Below, in pieces: positions 4,256-58,003 of a stretch of DNA of 64,000 nt (positions are counted from its first letter, which is position 1; each line of letters begins with the position of its first letter). Both the position numbers and the translations under genes were made by a program. The notes under the pieces are model-generated. The model was not told the origin of the DNA and ran no database searches. It worked only from the letters and a program-made list of their open reading frames with translations. This DNA comes from Acidobacteriota bacterium (GTDB taxonomy: Bacteria > Acidobacteriota > UBA890 > WLXD01). The stretch lies in NCBI GenBank assembly GCA_012103255.1, contig WLXD01000003.1:267984-331983 (forward strand), read 5' to 3'.

Positions 4256-5580
4256 ACGACGTTCTCCGCCGACTCCTGCTGCAGTTCCTCGGTCAGCCAG
4301 ACCGCCTCTGCAGGAATTTCGGTGGCCGCCTTCTGTGCCAACTCACGGACCTCGCGCCCCGCGTCGGTGACCATCTCCCAAGTCTTGACCCCGTGGCCCT
4401 CAACGTCCAGCGCCTTGGCCTCGGCAAGCAGGCCGCGCATGGGAACAGGGTCCACGCCACCGTCGCCATGGCGCTGTGCCCAGTGCGTGTCAGAACCCGG
4501 TGCCGGATACACGCCGACGACGTTGTAGAGAGCGTCTCGCTGCACGGGCAAACGGCCGGCTTCGCGGATGAGTTTCACCAGCTTGTGTGTCGTCATTCCG
4601 GCGGGCGAGGACGCAAGCGCTGCGTGCGCAATGAGCTCTTCGCCGATCGTCCCATCAAGATCATCGGCGCCCCACTGCAGGGCCATCGATGCTGTCTCCT
4701 CGCCCAGCATCACCCAGTACGCCTTGATATGCGGGAAGTTGTCGAGCATCAGGCGTGACGTGGCGATCGTCCTGAGATCCTCAATGGCTGAGGCCTGCCG
4801 CGAGACGATGTTCGTGTATCCGGGCTGGAACGCCAGAGGAATGAAGCTGAGGAAACCGCCCGTTCGATCCTGCATCTCACGCAGCATGAGCAGATGATTG
4901 ACCCGCTCCTCGTACGTTTCGACGTGTCCATACAGCAACGTGGCATTCGTGCGCAGGCCACGCCGATGCGCGATCTCATGAATCTCGAGCCAACGCTCGT
5001 GACCCATTTTCTCCTTGTACATGATCTCGCGAACGCGCTCGGAGAAGACCTCGGCGCCGCCACCCGGCATCGCCTGCATCCCTGCAGCCTCGAGACGCTC
5101 GAAGACCTCATCAACCGAGATCTTCTCGAGGTGCGCAAAGAAGTCGATCTCGACAGCCGTATACGCCTTGATCTGCGCCGTCGGGTTGGCTTCCCGGATC
5201 GCCTCGAGAACCTCGACGTAGCGCTCGAACCGCCAGTCGGGATGCATACCGCCAACGACATGCACCTCACGGATAGGCTCGGACACCCGTTGCCGGATCT
5301 TCTCGAGGGTCATTTCGTAGGCGTTATCGTCGCCGACCTTGGTCGCGAAATCGCAGAAACGGCAGCTCAGCACACAGACGTTGGTGGGATTGACCTGTCG
5401 ATTCAGGACGAAGGCTACGAACGGCCCGGTGCGGCGTTCCTTATCGGCATTCGCCAGGCGGCCAAGTCCCACCACATCGTGGGTCTCGAGCATCGCCAAG
5501 CCATCCGCCGCATCAAGACGGTCGCCGGCAGCCTGCTTGTCGATTACTCGTTGCAGTCGCGGATCAGTGGACGTTTGCAT
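4252..5580 (-). CDS. mqnE: Aminodeoxyfutalosine synthase (radical SAM)
   Basis: A radical SAM enzyme of 442 residues. MqnE joins 3-enolpyruvylbenzoate to an adenosine moiety from SAM to give aminodeoxyfutalosine. The cluster motif is CVLSCRFCDFA, followed by HVVGGMHPDWRFERY and MPGGGAEVFSERVRE, all typical of MqnE. The ATG at 5580 (MQTSTDPRL) was chosen because the in-frame extension upstream is Arg-rich, non-conserved and runs into the ubiD gene. About 70 C-terminal residues after the radical SAM core (HWAQRHGDGG onward) appear to be an extension relative to the usual length near 370. Confidence 0.92.
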   Translation of the reverse strand: MQTSTDPRLQRVIDKQAAGDRLDAADGLAMLETHDVVGLGRLANADKERRTGPFVAFVLNRQVNPTNVCVLSCRFCDFATKVGDDNAYEMTLEKIRQRVSEPIREVHVVGGMHPDWRFERYVEVLEAIREANPTAQIKAYTAVEIDFFAHLEKISVDEVFERLEAAGMQAMPGGGAEVFSERVREIMYKEKMGHERWLEIHEIAHRRGLRTNATLLYGHVETYEERVNHLLMLREMQDRTGGFLSFIPLAFQPGYTNIVSRQASAIEDLRTIATSRLMLDNFPHIKAYWVMLGEETASMALQWGADDLDGTIGEELIAHAALASSPAGMTTHKLVKLIREAGRLPVQRDALYNVVGVYPAPGSDTHWAQRHGDGGVDPVPMRGLLAEAKALDVEGHGVKTWEMVTDAGREVRELAQKAATEIPAEAVWLTEELQQESAENVV

Positions 5581-5621
5581 TCGGTCGGCCCTGAGTCGAT
5601 GAAGTGTTCCCCGTGACCTCT

Positions 5622-7484
5622 TCAGTCTAGCCCGTATTCCGCCCATCGGCTGTCGACTCTGGCCACTACGTCGGGGTCCATTTCGAGCCGATCTGGATAC
5701 CCCGGCTTGAAGGTCGCATCGATCCCGAGGACGCCGTAATTCGTGGTCCAAGGCCCCCGCGTCTCGGAGCGACTGAAGACCACATCACGGGCACAGTCGA
5801 AGCGGGTAAACACACCCCAAATCAGGTTCTCGCGATCGTGCAGGTCCACGTCACAGCTGACGGCGGCGACAAGGCGAATCGGGCCCAGATCGCCGCGAAC
5901 AAGAGTGGCCACAACTTCCGAGCCGGCTTCCGCCACCTTGACGATCAGCATGGTGTCCTCAACGACCGTGAACTCTTCTATGCGCCCATCGAGCGTGCGG
6001 GGATCGGGAATACGAGCCGACGAGCGCGGCGCTGGCTCGCCAACGCCATAGGTCGCGGGCTCGCCGAGATCAGCCGGACGGGCCCCAAACGCCTCGACCA
6101 CCGCTTCCCGATCGGCACCAGGCCGACCATGGAGCGCACTGGTTTCGCCCGTCGTGGCATCGATCACCATCTTGCTGCCCAGATTCATGCGGTAGCTGGT
6201 GAAGTCCAGGGTATCGAGCGGCACCCCAGGCAGAAGGAGGTAGTCACGATCGGGGTCGAAGTTCTCGCCAATCGCCCTGACCACAGCGTCGAAGTCACGC
6301 ACCGGCACATCGGCATCGACGAGTACGAGACACTTGGTGAGCGATAGCTGCCCTGTGCCCAGGAGAGCCAGGGCTGTCTTCACAGCTTCCTTGTAGAAGC
6401 GCTGCCGCACCGACACGACGAGCAAGTTGTGGAAGCCGGCCTCGAAATACGCCCACACTTCCTCGATCTCGGGGTGAATCAGCTTGATCAGCGGGCCGAG
6501 AATTTCTTGCGTCGCGTTGCCGATGTACTTGTCTTCCTGTGGCGGCAGCCCAACGACGGCAGACAGGTAGATCGGGTCCCGACGACGGGTAACAGCGGAA
6601 ACCTCGAACACAGGGAACGGTGCGGCGTGCGAGTAGTGGCCGAAATGGTCGCCAAAGGGACCTTCCATGCGCCGCTCACCGGGGGCAACTGTTCCCTCGA
6701 GAACCATCTCCGCGTTCGCGGGCACATCCATCGATAGCGTCTTCGCTCGCACCATCGGGCACGGGCCGCCGGCCAGGATGCCCGAGAACGCGATCTCGTC
6801 CATGCCCTCGGGGAGGGCCGCGATCGCTGACAGCAACAGGGCCGGATCGGCACCGACGATGACGGCGGTTTCCAACGGCCGTCCGAGGGCTTCCGCCCGG
6901 GCGTAGTGATTTCCGCAGCCGCGCACAATCTGCCAGTGCATCCCGGTGGTGGTCTTGTCGAATACCTGGAGTCGGTAGAGCCCGGTGTTGCGCTCACCAG
7001 TGAGAGGGTCATGAGTGATCGCCACTGCGAACGTCATGAAGGGGCCGCCGTCGCCCGGCCATGTGGTCTGCACAGGCAACTCGCTCAGATCGGGCGGCGA
7101 CTCGACGACCTCCTGCGCGGGTGCATTCCGCATGCGTCGTGTGCGCATGGAGAGCACCTCGAAAATCGACGACCGCGCCTCCCAAAGTGCCTTGGGCTTG
7201 GGCGGGTTCGCCCTGTGAGCCAAGTCGAGAAGCATCGCGCCGATCGACTCCGGCTCCCTCCCGAGCGCGATCTCTATCCTCCGCTCACTGCCGAGCGGGT
7301 TGATCAACAGCGGGTAGCTTGCGCCACGCACGTTCTCGAACAGGAGGGCTGGGCCGCCGCTTCGCATTGATCGGCCAGCGATCTCGGTGATCTCGAGTTC
7401 GGCGTCCACTTCCGCCTGCACGCGATGAAGTTCACCCGCCGACTCGAGCTCGCGGACGAAAGTGCGGAGGTCACGGCGACTCAT
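5622..7484 (-). CDS. UbiD-family decarboxylase, probably for menaquinone
   Basis: A 620-residue UbiD-type decarboxylase, which uses prenylated FMN. The family core is visible: NTGLYRLQVFDKTTTGMHW, an IVGADPA segment and MEGPFGDHFGHYS, which carries acidic residues of the active site. Sitting between the UbiX homolog and mqnE, it is the likely enzyme that removes the carboxylate from the prenylated 6-naphthoate intermediate after 1,4-dihydroxy-6-naphthoate (the MqnL role). It is longer than classical UbiD (about 490 residues), with extra C-terminal sequence. Its start overlaps the ubiX stop by 4 bases. The precise substrate is inferred from context. Confidence 0.88.
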   Translation of the reverse strand: MSRRDLRTFVRELESAGELHRVQAEVDAELEITEIAGRSMRSGGPALLFENVRGASYPLLINPLGSERRIEIALGREPESIGAMLLDLAHRANPPKPKALWEARSSIFEVLSMRTRRMRNAPAQEVVESPPDLSELPVQTTWPGDGGPFMTFAVAITHDPLTGERNTGLYRLQVFDKTTTGMHWQIVRGCGNHYARAEALGRPLETAVIVGADPALLLSAIAALPEGMDEIAFSGILAGGPCPMVRAKTLSMDVPANAEMVLEGTVAPGERRMEGPFGDHFGHYSHAAPFPVFEVSAVTRRRDPIYLSAVVGLPPQEDKYIGNATQEILGPLIKLIHPEIEEVWAYFEAGFHNLLVVSVRQRFYKEAVKTALALLGTGQLSLTKCLVLVDADVPVRDFDAVVRAIGENFDPDRDYLLLPGVPLDTLDFTSYRMNLGSKMVIDATTGETSALHGRPGADREAVVEAFGARPADLGEPATYGVGEPAPRSSARIPDPRTLDGRIEEFTVVEDTMLIVKVAEAGSEVVATLVRGDLGPIRLVAAVSCDVDLHDRENLIWGVFTRFDCARDVVFSRSETRGPWTTNYGVLGIDATFKPGYPDRLEMDPDVVARVDSRWAEYGLD

Positions 7485-16405: not shown

Positions 16406-16969
16406 ATGACCGTGAATGCGGCGTCGAGCCAGCGGACGATCGCCTTGATGGCGGTAGCGATCGTCGTCATCGATCAGATCACCAAGTGGGTCATCACGGG
16501 CGAGGTTGCGCTTCATACGCGCCTACCGCTCGTTGACGGGCTCCTGGCCTTCACCCACGTCCATAACCGCGGCATGGCGTTCGGCCTGTTCAACACCGTT
16601 GGAAGCCCATGGTTGAGGTGGGTGCTCGCCGGCGTGGCCGTTCTTGCCGTGGTGATTATCTGGTCGTACGCGCGGCACGAAGTTGCGCGGCCGACAGTGC
16701 TCGTGGCCTTCGGCTGTATCCTCGGCGGCGCGGTCGGTAACCTGATCGATAGAGTCCGGTTTGGCTACGTGGAGGACTTCATCCTGGCCCACTGGAACGC
16801 CTACGAGTTCCCCGCCTTCAACGTGGCGGACGCAGCGATTACCATGGGGGGTGTGGCGCTCTTCCTGAGCCTGGCTCGAGAGCCTGAGGAACCTGAGGCG
16901 TCGCCGCCTCCCCAAGACGACACGAATACGTTGGCCGCGACGGCAAACGACGTTTCCGACGACGCCTGA
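16406..16969 (+). CDS. lspA: Lipoprotein signal peptidase (signal peptidase II)
   Basis: A 187-residue membrane aspartyl protease that cleaves prolipoprotein signal peptides after lipid attachment. Four transmembrane segments are visible. The two catalytic Asp motifs are present: GNLIDRVRFGYVEDF and FNVADAAITMGG. The C-terminus has an acidic, Pro-rich tail of about 30 residues beyond the family core. It is followed after 15 bases by lgt, giving a lipoprotein maturation pair; the cyclophilin lipoprotein in this window is a candidate substrate. Confidence 0.95.
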   Translation: MTVNAASSQRTIALMAVAIVVIDQITKWVITGEVALHTRLPLVDGLLAFTHVHNRGMAFGLFNTVGSPWLRWVLAGVAVLAVVIIWSYARHEVARPTVLVAFGCILGGAVGNLIDRVRFGYVEDFILAHWNAYEFPAFNVADAAITMGGVALFLSLAREPEEPEASPPPQDDTNTLAATANDVSDDA

Positions 16970-16984
16970 TTCCAAGAGGTCCGC

Positions 16985-17881
16985 ATGTTTCCGATTCTCT
17001 TCCGGATTCCCCTACCGGGGATCGGCCCCGTAACGATTCACACTTACGGAGTCCTCCTGGTCGTCGCGTTCCTGGTGGCGATCACCGTCGCGCGCAAGTT
17101 GGCCCGGCGCGAGGATATCGATACAGATCGGATCGTCGATCTCGGCGTCTACGCGATTCTCGGCGGCCTGGTCGGCGCGAAAGTGCTGCTCCTCATCGTC
17201 GACTATGACTTCTACTCGCGGCAGTTCTCCAACATCATGGCCGACGGTGGCGGCAACGTCGGCGCGGCCTTGTCTGGACTCGGCGGAGCGGGGGCCTTCC
17301 TCGGTACGGTCACGGAAATGGCTCTTAGCCTGCTGCAGGCAGGCGGCGTCTTCTACGGTGGGCTGATCGCCGGGGTCCTCGTCGCACTGTGGTACATGCG
17401 GCGCACCGGGATGCCGATCTGGCGCTCGGCAGACGTTGCGGCGCCGGCCATCGCGGTGGCACACGCCTTCGGTCGCGTTGGCTGCTTCGCGGCCGGTTGC
17501 TGTTACGGCATCCCCACGGAACTGCCCTGGGGCGTGACCTTCACCGACAGCTACAGCGGCACGCTGGTCGGCGTCCCCTTGAACATCGCGCTGCACCCGA
17601 CCCAGATCTACTCCGTACTAGGCAACCTTGCGATCTTCGCGTTCCTGCTGTGGTTCTATCGCCGCAAGCAGTTCGACGGACAGGTGTTCTGGGTGTACGC
17701 CCTCACCTACGGAATCTTCAGATTCACCGTTGAGTTCTGGCGGGGAGACCCGCGCGGCTCGATCTTCGACGGCAGTTTGTCGACATCACAGTTCGTGGCC
17801 ATCCTGATGGTCACTGTGGCGCTCGGCATGCTGGCGCGTCTGCGCATGAACAAGACGGACGCCGCCGAGAGCAACGCCTGA
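16985..17881 (+). CDS. lgt: Prolipoprotein diacylglyceryl transferase
   Basis: A 298-residue membrane enzyme that moves diacylglycerol from phosphatidylglycerol to the lipobox cysteine. Recognisable segments are HTYGVLLVVAFLVAI, GGVFYGGLIAG (in place of the HGGL form of the E. coli enzyme) and the Lgt signature GRVGCFAAGCCYGIPTELPWGV. A hydrophobic insert near residues 85-115 (GLGGAGAFLGTVTEMALSLL) looks slightly longer than usual. It lies between lspA and the pseudouridine synthase gene on the same transcript, 4 bases ahead of the latter's GTG start. Confidence 0.95.
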   Translation: MFPILFRIPLPGIGPVTIHTYGVLLVVAFLVAITVARKLARREDIDTDRIVDLGVYAILGGLVGAKVLLLIVDYDFYSRQFSNIMADGGGNVGAALSGLGGAGAFLGTVTEMALSLLQAGGVFYGGLIAGVLVALWYMRRTGMPIWRSADVAAPAIAVAHAFGRVGCFAAGCCYGIPTELPWGVTFTDSYSGTLVGVPLNIALHPTQIYSVLGNLAIFAFLLWFYRRKQFDGQVFWVYALTYGIFRFTVEFWRGDPRGSIFDGSLSTSQFVAILMVTVALGMLARLRMNKTDAAESNA

Positions 17882-57190: not shown

Positions 57191-58003
57191 ATGGCCGGGG
57201 GAATCAGCGGAGCGGCTCTGGTCATCGTTCTGAGCACCTGGGCCCGCTATCTATCTTTGATTCCGCGCGGCAGGGTGCCTGCCCGGCCCCTCGGCTCGGT
57301 GATCCTACAAGTGCTCGGAATGACGCTTGCAGTCGCGGCCATTCTCGAGAACTACTGGAGCGTCGACGGGCCCGCGGCGGGCGTGGTCGCCAACTCCACC
57401 ACAGCCGTGCTGATGGGCGCGTTCTTCCTCTGGCTACTCGCCCAAAGGAAGACACCGGTCGGCGACCTGAAGGTGGGCGTCGGCGATATTCTGCCGGGGT
57501 TCACCGCCACGACCTCCGACGGGGCCATCTTCAGCACCGACGAACTCGACGGCAAACGCGTCCTCCTGAAGTTCTTCCGCGGCGGCTGGTGACCCTACTG
57601 CTGCGCCGAGTTACGGCGTTTCGAGCAGATGCGGCCGGCGCTGGCAAAGCACGCCGTCAGCGTGATCGCCCTGAGCAAGGACACCGTCGACGAGGTCGCC
57701 ATCCACAAGCAGCGCGACGGGCTCACACTGACGTTGCTCGCCGACCCGGAGCTCGAAGTCATCCGCCAGTACGGTGTCGAGCACCACAAGGTCCTGGGAT
57801 TCTCCACCGGCAGCCTCATGCTCGGCGGGATCCCGCTCGGGCCCGGGGGCCCGTCGTTCAAGACGATGGCCATCCCGACTTCGCTGCTGGTGGACGAAGA
57901 CGGACGCATCGTCTGGATCGACCAGGCCGACGACTACCGGCTGCGCAGCAGCAACGGCCGGGTACTCGGGGCTGTCGAAACCGCATTCAGCTCCGAGTCC
58001 TAG
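57191..58003 (+). CDS. Membrane-anchored redoxin, predicted selenoprotein (Sec134)
   Basis: A 270-residue protein read through one in-frame TGA (57590-57592). Residues 1-90 contain about three hydrophobic segments (SGAALVIVLSTWARYLSLI, SVILQVLGMTLAVAAIL, TAVLMGAFFLWLLAQ). The redoxin domain follows: VGVGDILPGFTATTSDG, then FFRGGW-Sec-PYCCAELRRFEQ, where homologs have WCPYC. The TGA occupies the catalytic Cys position and Cys137 follows in a Sec-x-x-Cys motif. The frame continues without a stop for 136 codons, including IPTSLLVDEDGRIVWID. A SECIS-like hairpin lies directly after the TGA. It probably reduces peroxides or disulfides at the membrane. A nonsense mutation is the alternative. Confidence 0.85.
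57598..57628 (+). promoter_or_regulatory. Bacterial SECIS-like hairpin
   Basis: Starting 5 bases after the TGA, a lower stem CTGCT (57598-57602) pairs with AGCAG (57624-57628), and an upper stem CGCCG (57604-57608) with CGGCG (57614-57618) around the loop AGTTA, with G at the second loop position. One unpaired G lies on the 5' side and TTTCG on the 3' side. The loop begins 16 nt after the TGA, inside the 16-37 nt window known for bacterial SECIS elements. It lies wholly inside the coding frame. Confidence 0.75.

Follow-up and report, generated by a model that had tools for sequence, protein, structure and literature searches.

The gene at positions 57191-58003 of the window (the whole 64,000-nucleotide stretch of DNA that was analysed) very probably encodes a selenoprotein of 270 residues, with a SECIS-directed selenocysteine at position 134, three helices, an AhpC/TSA domain and a proposed catalytic pair of Sec134 and Cys137. 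This conclusion is based on the computed reading frame, the exchange of Sec and Cys among homologs, a covarying SECIS hairpin, the machinery of the host genome, the protein domain and the helices. An earlier note, made from the letters of the DNA alone, had read an in-frame TGA of this gene as selenocysteine, a reading supported by the machinery, by homologs with TGA or Cys at the same codon and by the bacterial SECIS (bSECIS)-type hairpin.

The frame starts with ATG and ends with TAG, and the only stop within it is a TGA at codon 134 of 271 (TAG included). Its G+C content by codon position is coding-like both before the TGA (GC1/2/3 = 0.64/0.50/0.83) and after it in the same frame (0.66/0.44/0.90). 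These features confirm the single open frame across the TGA that the earlier note had described, all of whose coordinates are correct. On read-through, residues 130-137 form the motif RGGW-U-PYC, and the proposed placement of the TGA at the first Cys of the redox motif is borne out by homologs, in which this codon is TGA or TGC/TGT. The start is supported by an ortholog (L030) that begins at the same Met and has a stop 7 codons upstream of it. As foreseen for a standard caller, a mechanical gene caller splits the frame into two false genes, 57191-57592 and 57629-58003. Among seven in-frame TGAs with coding-like flanks detected by scanning the window, only the one at 57590 goes with a redox motif of the UxxC type. 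The other candidate that lies between two long open frames, TGA 16967 (+), is not a selenocysteine codon; it is the stop of lspA, after which lgt follows in frame. These two genes (window 16406-17881) share a frame and are set apart by the lspA TGA and five codons, forming a Sec look-alike with a true stop.

Table 1. Features of the predicted selenoprotein gene, in window coordinates.
Feature	Position	Strand	Basis or remark
Predicted selenoprotein CDS	57191..58003	+	ATG...TGA(Sec134)...TAG, 270 aa, membrane-anchored AhpC/TSA-type redoxin
Predicted transmembrane helix 1, residues 2-23	57194..57259	+	AlphaFold2 model, hydropathy
Predicted transmembrane helix 2, residues 34-56	57290..57358	+	AlphaFold2 model, hydropathy
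Predicted transmembrane helix 3, residues 63-84	57377..57442	+	AlphaFold2 model, hydropathy
AhpC/TSA (PF00578) redoxin domain, residues 97-242	57479..57916	+	Pfam 1.3e-25, 90.2 bits vs 26-bit cut-off
UGA, very probably read as Sec134	57590..57592	+	First Cys position of W-C-x-x-C; homolog comparison
Predicted bacterial SECIS hairpin	57598..57628	+	Fold prediction, covariation
Outer stem, 5 bp	57598-57602/57624-57628	+	Not common to all orthologs
Codon of resolving Cys137 (proposed role)	57599..57601	+	Invariant in alignment
Upper stem	57603-57608/57614-57619	+	6 bp
Apical loop AGUUA	57609-57613	+	Fold prediction

The window's own genome is an Acidobacteriota MAG of 4.81 Mb in 9 contigs (95% complete). 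It contains all four components of the selenocysteine machinery for which a search had been proposed, namely selA (534 bits), selB (346 bits) and selD (330 bits), each over its cut-off, and a tRNA-Sec (65.9 bits) with the anticodon UCA. The selD gene (C2:892635-893561) also codes for a selenoprotein: its motif SGGUAAK contains an in-frame TGA, which a hairpin follows. The same genome carries a second selenocysteine redoxin (C4:221503-221811; LLFFRGTW-U-PWCRTQLG), which has the hairpin GCAGCTC/GGT/GAGCTGC. Two equal, sub-cut-off matches to the selB model, located 16 kb apart (C8:101308-102168 and C8:117642-118502), are probably duplicated elongation factor Tu genes.

TGA terminates 7 of the 18 other window genes checked, including lspA, lgt and an RluD-like gene. 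Because it ends these genes normally, the code is not reassigned, and genome-wide reassignment was rejected. The broader explanation, in which UGA is either reassigned throughout the genome or decoded as Trp, Gly or Cys, is very improbable. Since the aligned residue of homologs is Cys, a tRNA that inserts Cys at UGA would likewise yield a working protein; however, the homologs examined carry Cys (one Asp) and never Trp or Gly, the Sec set is complete and includes the UCA tRNA-Sec, and ordinary termination at TGA also speaks against such decoding.

Many relatives of the protein are found in a phylum sample of 396 Acidobacteriota genomes. The closest, from a sister MAG of the same genus (78% identity), has TGA at the same codon. 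In the 30 best loci, every internal TGA falls exactly at W-U-x-x-C, and the remaining loci carry W-C-x-x-C, with one Asp. A further 40 matches bear a TGA, which is at W-U-x-x-C in 37; of the other three, one is a natural C-terminal stop and two have a TGA where a peroxiredoxin-like motif has its cysteine. Acidobacteriota redoxins with this other Sec placement include L068 (G236), with TAGUT, and L100 (G055), with DTPGUT.

Named genomes were also scanned for orthologs using only the part of the protein upstream of the TGA as the query, so that the search was unbiased towards Sec or Cys. Full-length orthologs with TGA at the same codon occur in two Myxococcota, and Cys-codon orthologs occur in a MAG labelled Patescibacteria (TGT), Zongyanglinia marina (TGC) and Shimia sp. 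(TGT); a more distant cyanobacterial homolog, from Synechocystis, also has Cys. These codons bear out the predicted Cys/Sec exchange at residue 134. Both TGA-bearing Myxococcota genomes have selA, compared with none of the four Cys genomes (Synechocystis included). A small tree of few rows places the three Cys orthologs in one group next to the Sec orthologs (support 88/84). The ortholog from the MAG labelled Patescibacteria (0.7 Mb; JAJDCJ010000019.1) is 53% identical, and this MAG and the Acidobacteriota MAG OFTM137 belong to one OFTM isolate series; transfer or a mis-binned contig is a possible origin of this Cys ortholog. No relatives were found on viral contigs, and plasmids yielded only distant redoxins of <60% identity.

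Overall, orthologs down to ~39% identity and in two phyla keep the TGA at this very codon, and the frame is intact afterwards. Homologs that terminate at this codon, named in the earlier note as contrary evidence, were not seen; the homologs read on with TGA or a Cys codon. This conservation bears directly on whether the TGA is an ordinary stop, either in a pseudogene with a nonsense mutation or between two genes, one for a truncated membrane protein and the next for a fragment of a redoxin. Although the frame does resolve into two ORFs under table 11, an ordinary stop is hard to reconcile with the same TGA and a conserved downstream frame in such divergent orthologs, and a pseudogene would be expected to have other lesions and not the coding-like GC3 downstream. 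We therefore consider this explanation highly unlikely. An error of sequencing or assembly, with TGC or TGG as the true codon, is less probable still. One base change would yield Cys, but the TGA is not a read error because it recurs in the independent 78%-identity MAG and in the two Myxococcota; in these independent MAGs of both phyla it is tied to SECIS hairpins and selA.

Selenocysteine insertion, the favoured reading, is also reflected in the distribution of the machinery. Among the matches listed from the phylum sample, selA is present in 40 of the 44 genomes that carry the TGA and in 19 of the 63 with stop-free matches only (Fisher 2e-10). Both genome sets were picked manually from the best matches in that list, and because the genomes are related, the p value does not reflect independent events. 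Of the four TGA-carrying genomes without selA, three have selB, and neither gene was found in the other, a MAG that is 75% complete.

The predicted minimum-energy structure of 57598-57628 consists of 5 and 6 base pairs with a 4-nt bulge (-15 kcal/mol, z -2.6), and its loop lies 16 nt after the TGA. The published bSECIS model (PMC13188914) includes a loop of 3-9 nt, a stem of 4-16 bp, a G at loop position 1 or 2, a distance of 16-37 nt after the UGA and an MFE of -7.5 kcal/mol or lower. With its loop AGUUA, 6-bp stem, G at position 2, 16-nt distance and -15 kcal/mol, the window hairpin satisfies every one of these constraints, which answers the suggestion that a bacterial SECIS check be applied to it. 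Taken alone, the window sequence gives p 0.011 on energy and 0.06 on pairs against a synonymous-codon null, which is moderate only, and the hairpin is unexceptional compared with shuffles when a longer stretch of 51 nt is folded (z -0.3).

Covariation is seen in the upper stem. Among 14 aligned Sec sequences whose loops coincide in position, from which the stem itself was defined in a way that favours it, 96% of the upper-stem cells are paired and four of the six pairs show changes on both sides. The covariation score was reached by 0 of 500 shuffles and falls far lower when the stem partners are slid by 1 to 3 columns. The same positions in the three Cys orthologs give only one or two pairs of six. 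Likewise, when the bSECIS rules are applied, the stem reaches 6 bp or more in 46 of 49 TGA-bearing W-U-x-x-C redoxins of the phylum sample versus 4 of 23 Cys homologs. The Leu codon that supplies the loop is TTA, which is used twice in five window genes versus 107 times for CTC and 105 times for CTG; this rare choice is consistent with selection for the loop and not for codon usage. Thus, the two-part hairpin 16 nt from the TGA that the earlier note had drawn is upheld by the minimum-energy fold and, in its upper stem, by covariation. An Rfam search of the region gave only chance matches and none to a SECIS family. Because bSECIS elements are mostly unlike each other (PMC13188914), this result is not evidence against a bSECIS.

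The protein scores over the Pfam cut-offs for both AhpC/TSA and Redoxin (PF08534; 6.2e-18, 65 bits), with PF00578 the higher of the two, whereas it misses every NCBIfam family cut-off by far. An AlphaFold2 model built from window and locus sequences with Cys replacing Sec (mean pLDDT 86.9) has three helices followed by the redoxin domain, in which residue 134 is located just before a helix at 135-152. The best PDB fold matches are 5enu (an alkyl hydroperoxide reductase), Bcp4 (3hjp) and the ResA-like 4nmu, and the nearest solved folds are those of BCP/AhpE peroxiredoxins and ResA-like oxidoreductases. The membrane-anchored redoxin that had been proposed is borne out as a prediction, with three N-terminal transmembrane helices. 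Positive charges are found between helices 1 and 2 (IPRGRVPARP) and after helix 3 (QRK). Because of these Arg and Lys residues, the positive-inside rule suggests a topology in which the redoxin domain faces the cytoplasm.

These features suggest a mechanism in which the downstream SECIS hairpin would direct SelB and Sec-tRNA(UCA) to read the UGA as selenocysteine. Presumably, Sec134 would be a nucleophile of low pKa and attack a disulfide or hydroperoxide, Cys137 would resolve the adduct as an intramolecular selenenylsulfide, and a thioredoxin-type reductant would recycle it. In UxxC and CxxC redoxins generally, nucleophilic attack comes from the first residue of the pair and resolution from the second. 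Both the catalysis and the substrate (disulfide versus peroxide) are inferred by homology.

The gene is flanked in the window by YfhO-like, SnoaL-like, RNase H and PALP genes. Comparison of these neighbours with those at loci L059-L064 revealed no conserved operon that names a partner, and PADLOC returned nothing. At one locus (L061), in a Myxococcales MAG, a gene for the protein adenylyltransferase SelO (4922-5809, -) is convergent to the Sec redoxin; this neighbour did not turn up at the other loci scanned.

In the phylum sample, selA is present in 251 of 396 genomes, and its distribution looks patchy by family, being found throughout some and rarely in others (f8, f23). Many of these genomes encode at least one UxxC redoxin in which annotation would take the TGA for a stop. 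Passages of a 2006 survey (PMC1794560) give only four selenoproteins for the Acidobacteriota phylum. The extent of selenium use in this large and mostly uncultured group may therefore be underestimated, and the gene described here is a clean example of one cut in two by standard annotation. In addition, the paired Sec and Cys orthologs are well suited to studying the benefit of having Sec.

Among known systems, the protein most resembles the Prx-like thiol:disulfide oxidoreductase selenoproteins (PF00578, UxxC; PMC13188914 Table 1), to which it is assigned by Pfam domain and UxxC motif. The two have in common an AhpC/TSA domain over cut-off, Sec at the first, thioredoxin-like UxxC position (not TxxU), a downstream bSECIS and widespread Cys homologs. 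The published representative of this class is WP_010940744.1 (PMC13188914), the class is named 'Prx-like' in PMC1088965, which distinguishes UxxC from TxxU among Prx-like selenoproteins, and it is 'Prx-like 1' in PMC2398784. The window protein differs in its N-terminal three-helix membrane anchor. The main text of PMC2398784 contains neither 'membrane' nor 'transmembrane' and so mentions no membrane form, which is not proof of novelty; the absence of the three-helix anchor from literature passages on UxxC redoxins is weak evidence that it is undescribed.

The Redoxin family selenoprotein (PF08534, UxxC; PMC13188914), compared by description only, shares the Redoxin domain and UxxC, although PF00578 outscores PF08534 in the window protein; 'Prx-like 3', as described in passages of PMC2398784, has the same domain and motif as that family. 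The SelL-related redox proteins (NF040769) have a related redoxin fold and match weakly, and membership was rejected (26.7 bits vs a 120-bit cut-off). ResA/TlpA thiol-disulfide oxidoreductases and BCP/PrxQ peroxiredoxins are alike in fold, but the window protein has Sec at the first motif Cys and three N-terminal helices. Both ResA (NF002854; 44.2 bits vs 170) and the thioredoxin-dependent thiol peroxidase BCP (NF006960; 46.8 bits vs 140) were rejected, the latter also because the motif is UxxC and not the peroxidatic TxxC. A tentative and rather unlikely proposal is that membrane-anchored selenoredoxins with three helices form a distinct and so far undescribed subfamily. It would occur in Acidobacteriota and Myxococcota, have its Cys orthologs in Rhodobacterales, and reduce membrane (lipid/quinone-linked) hydroperoxides or disulfides at the membrane face. 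The UxxC selenoredoxin class is already documented in passages of PMC13188914, PMC9312934, PMC2398784 and PMC1088965, and the window protein is a member of this known class of selenium-containing redoxins.
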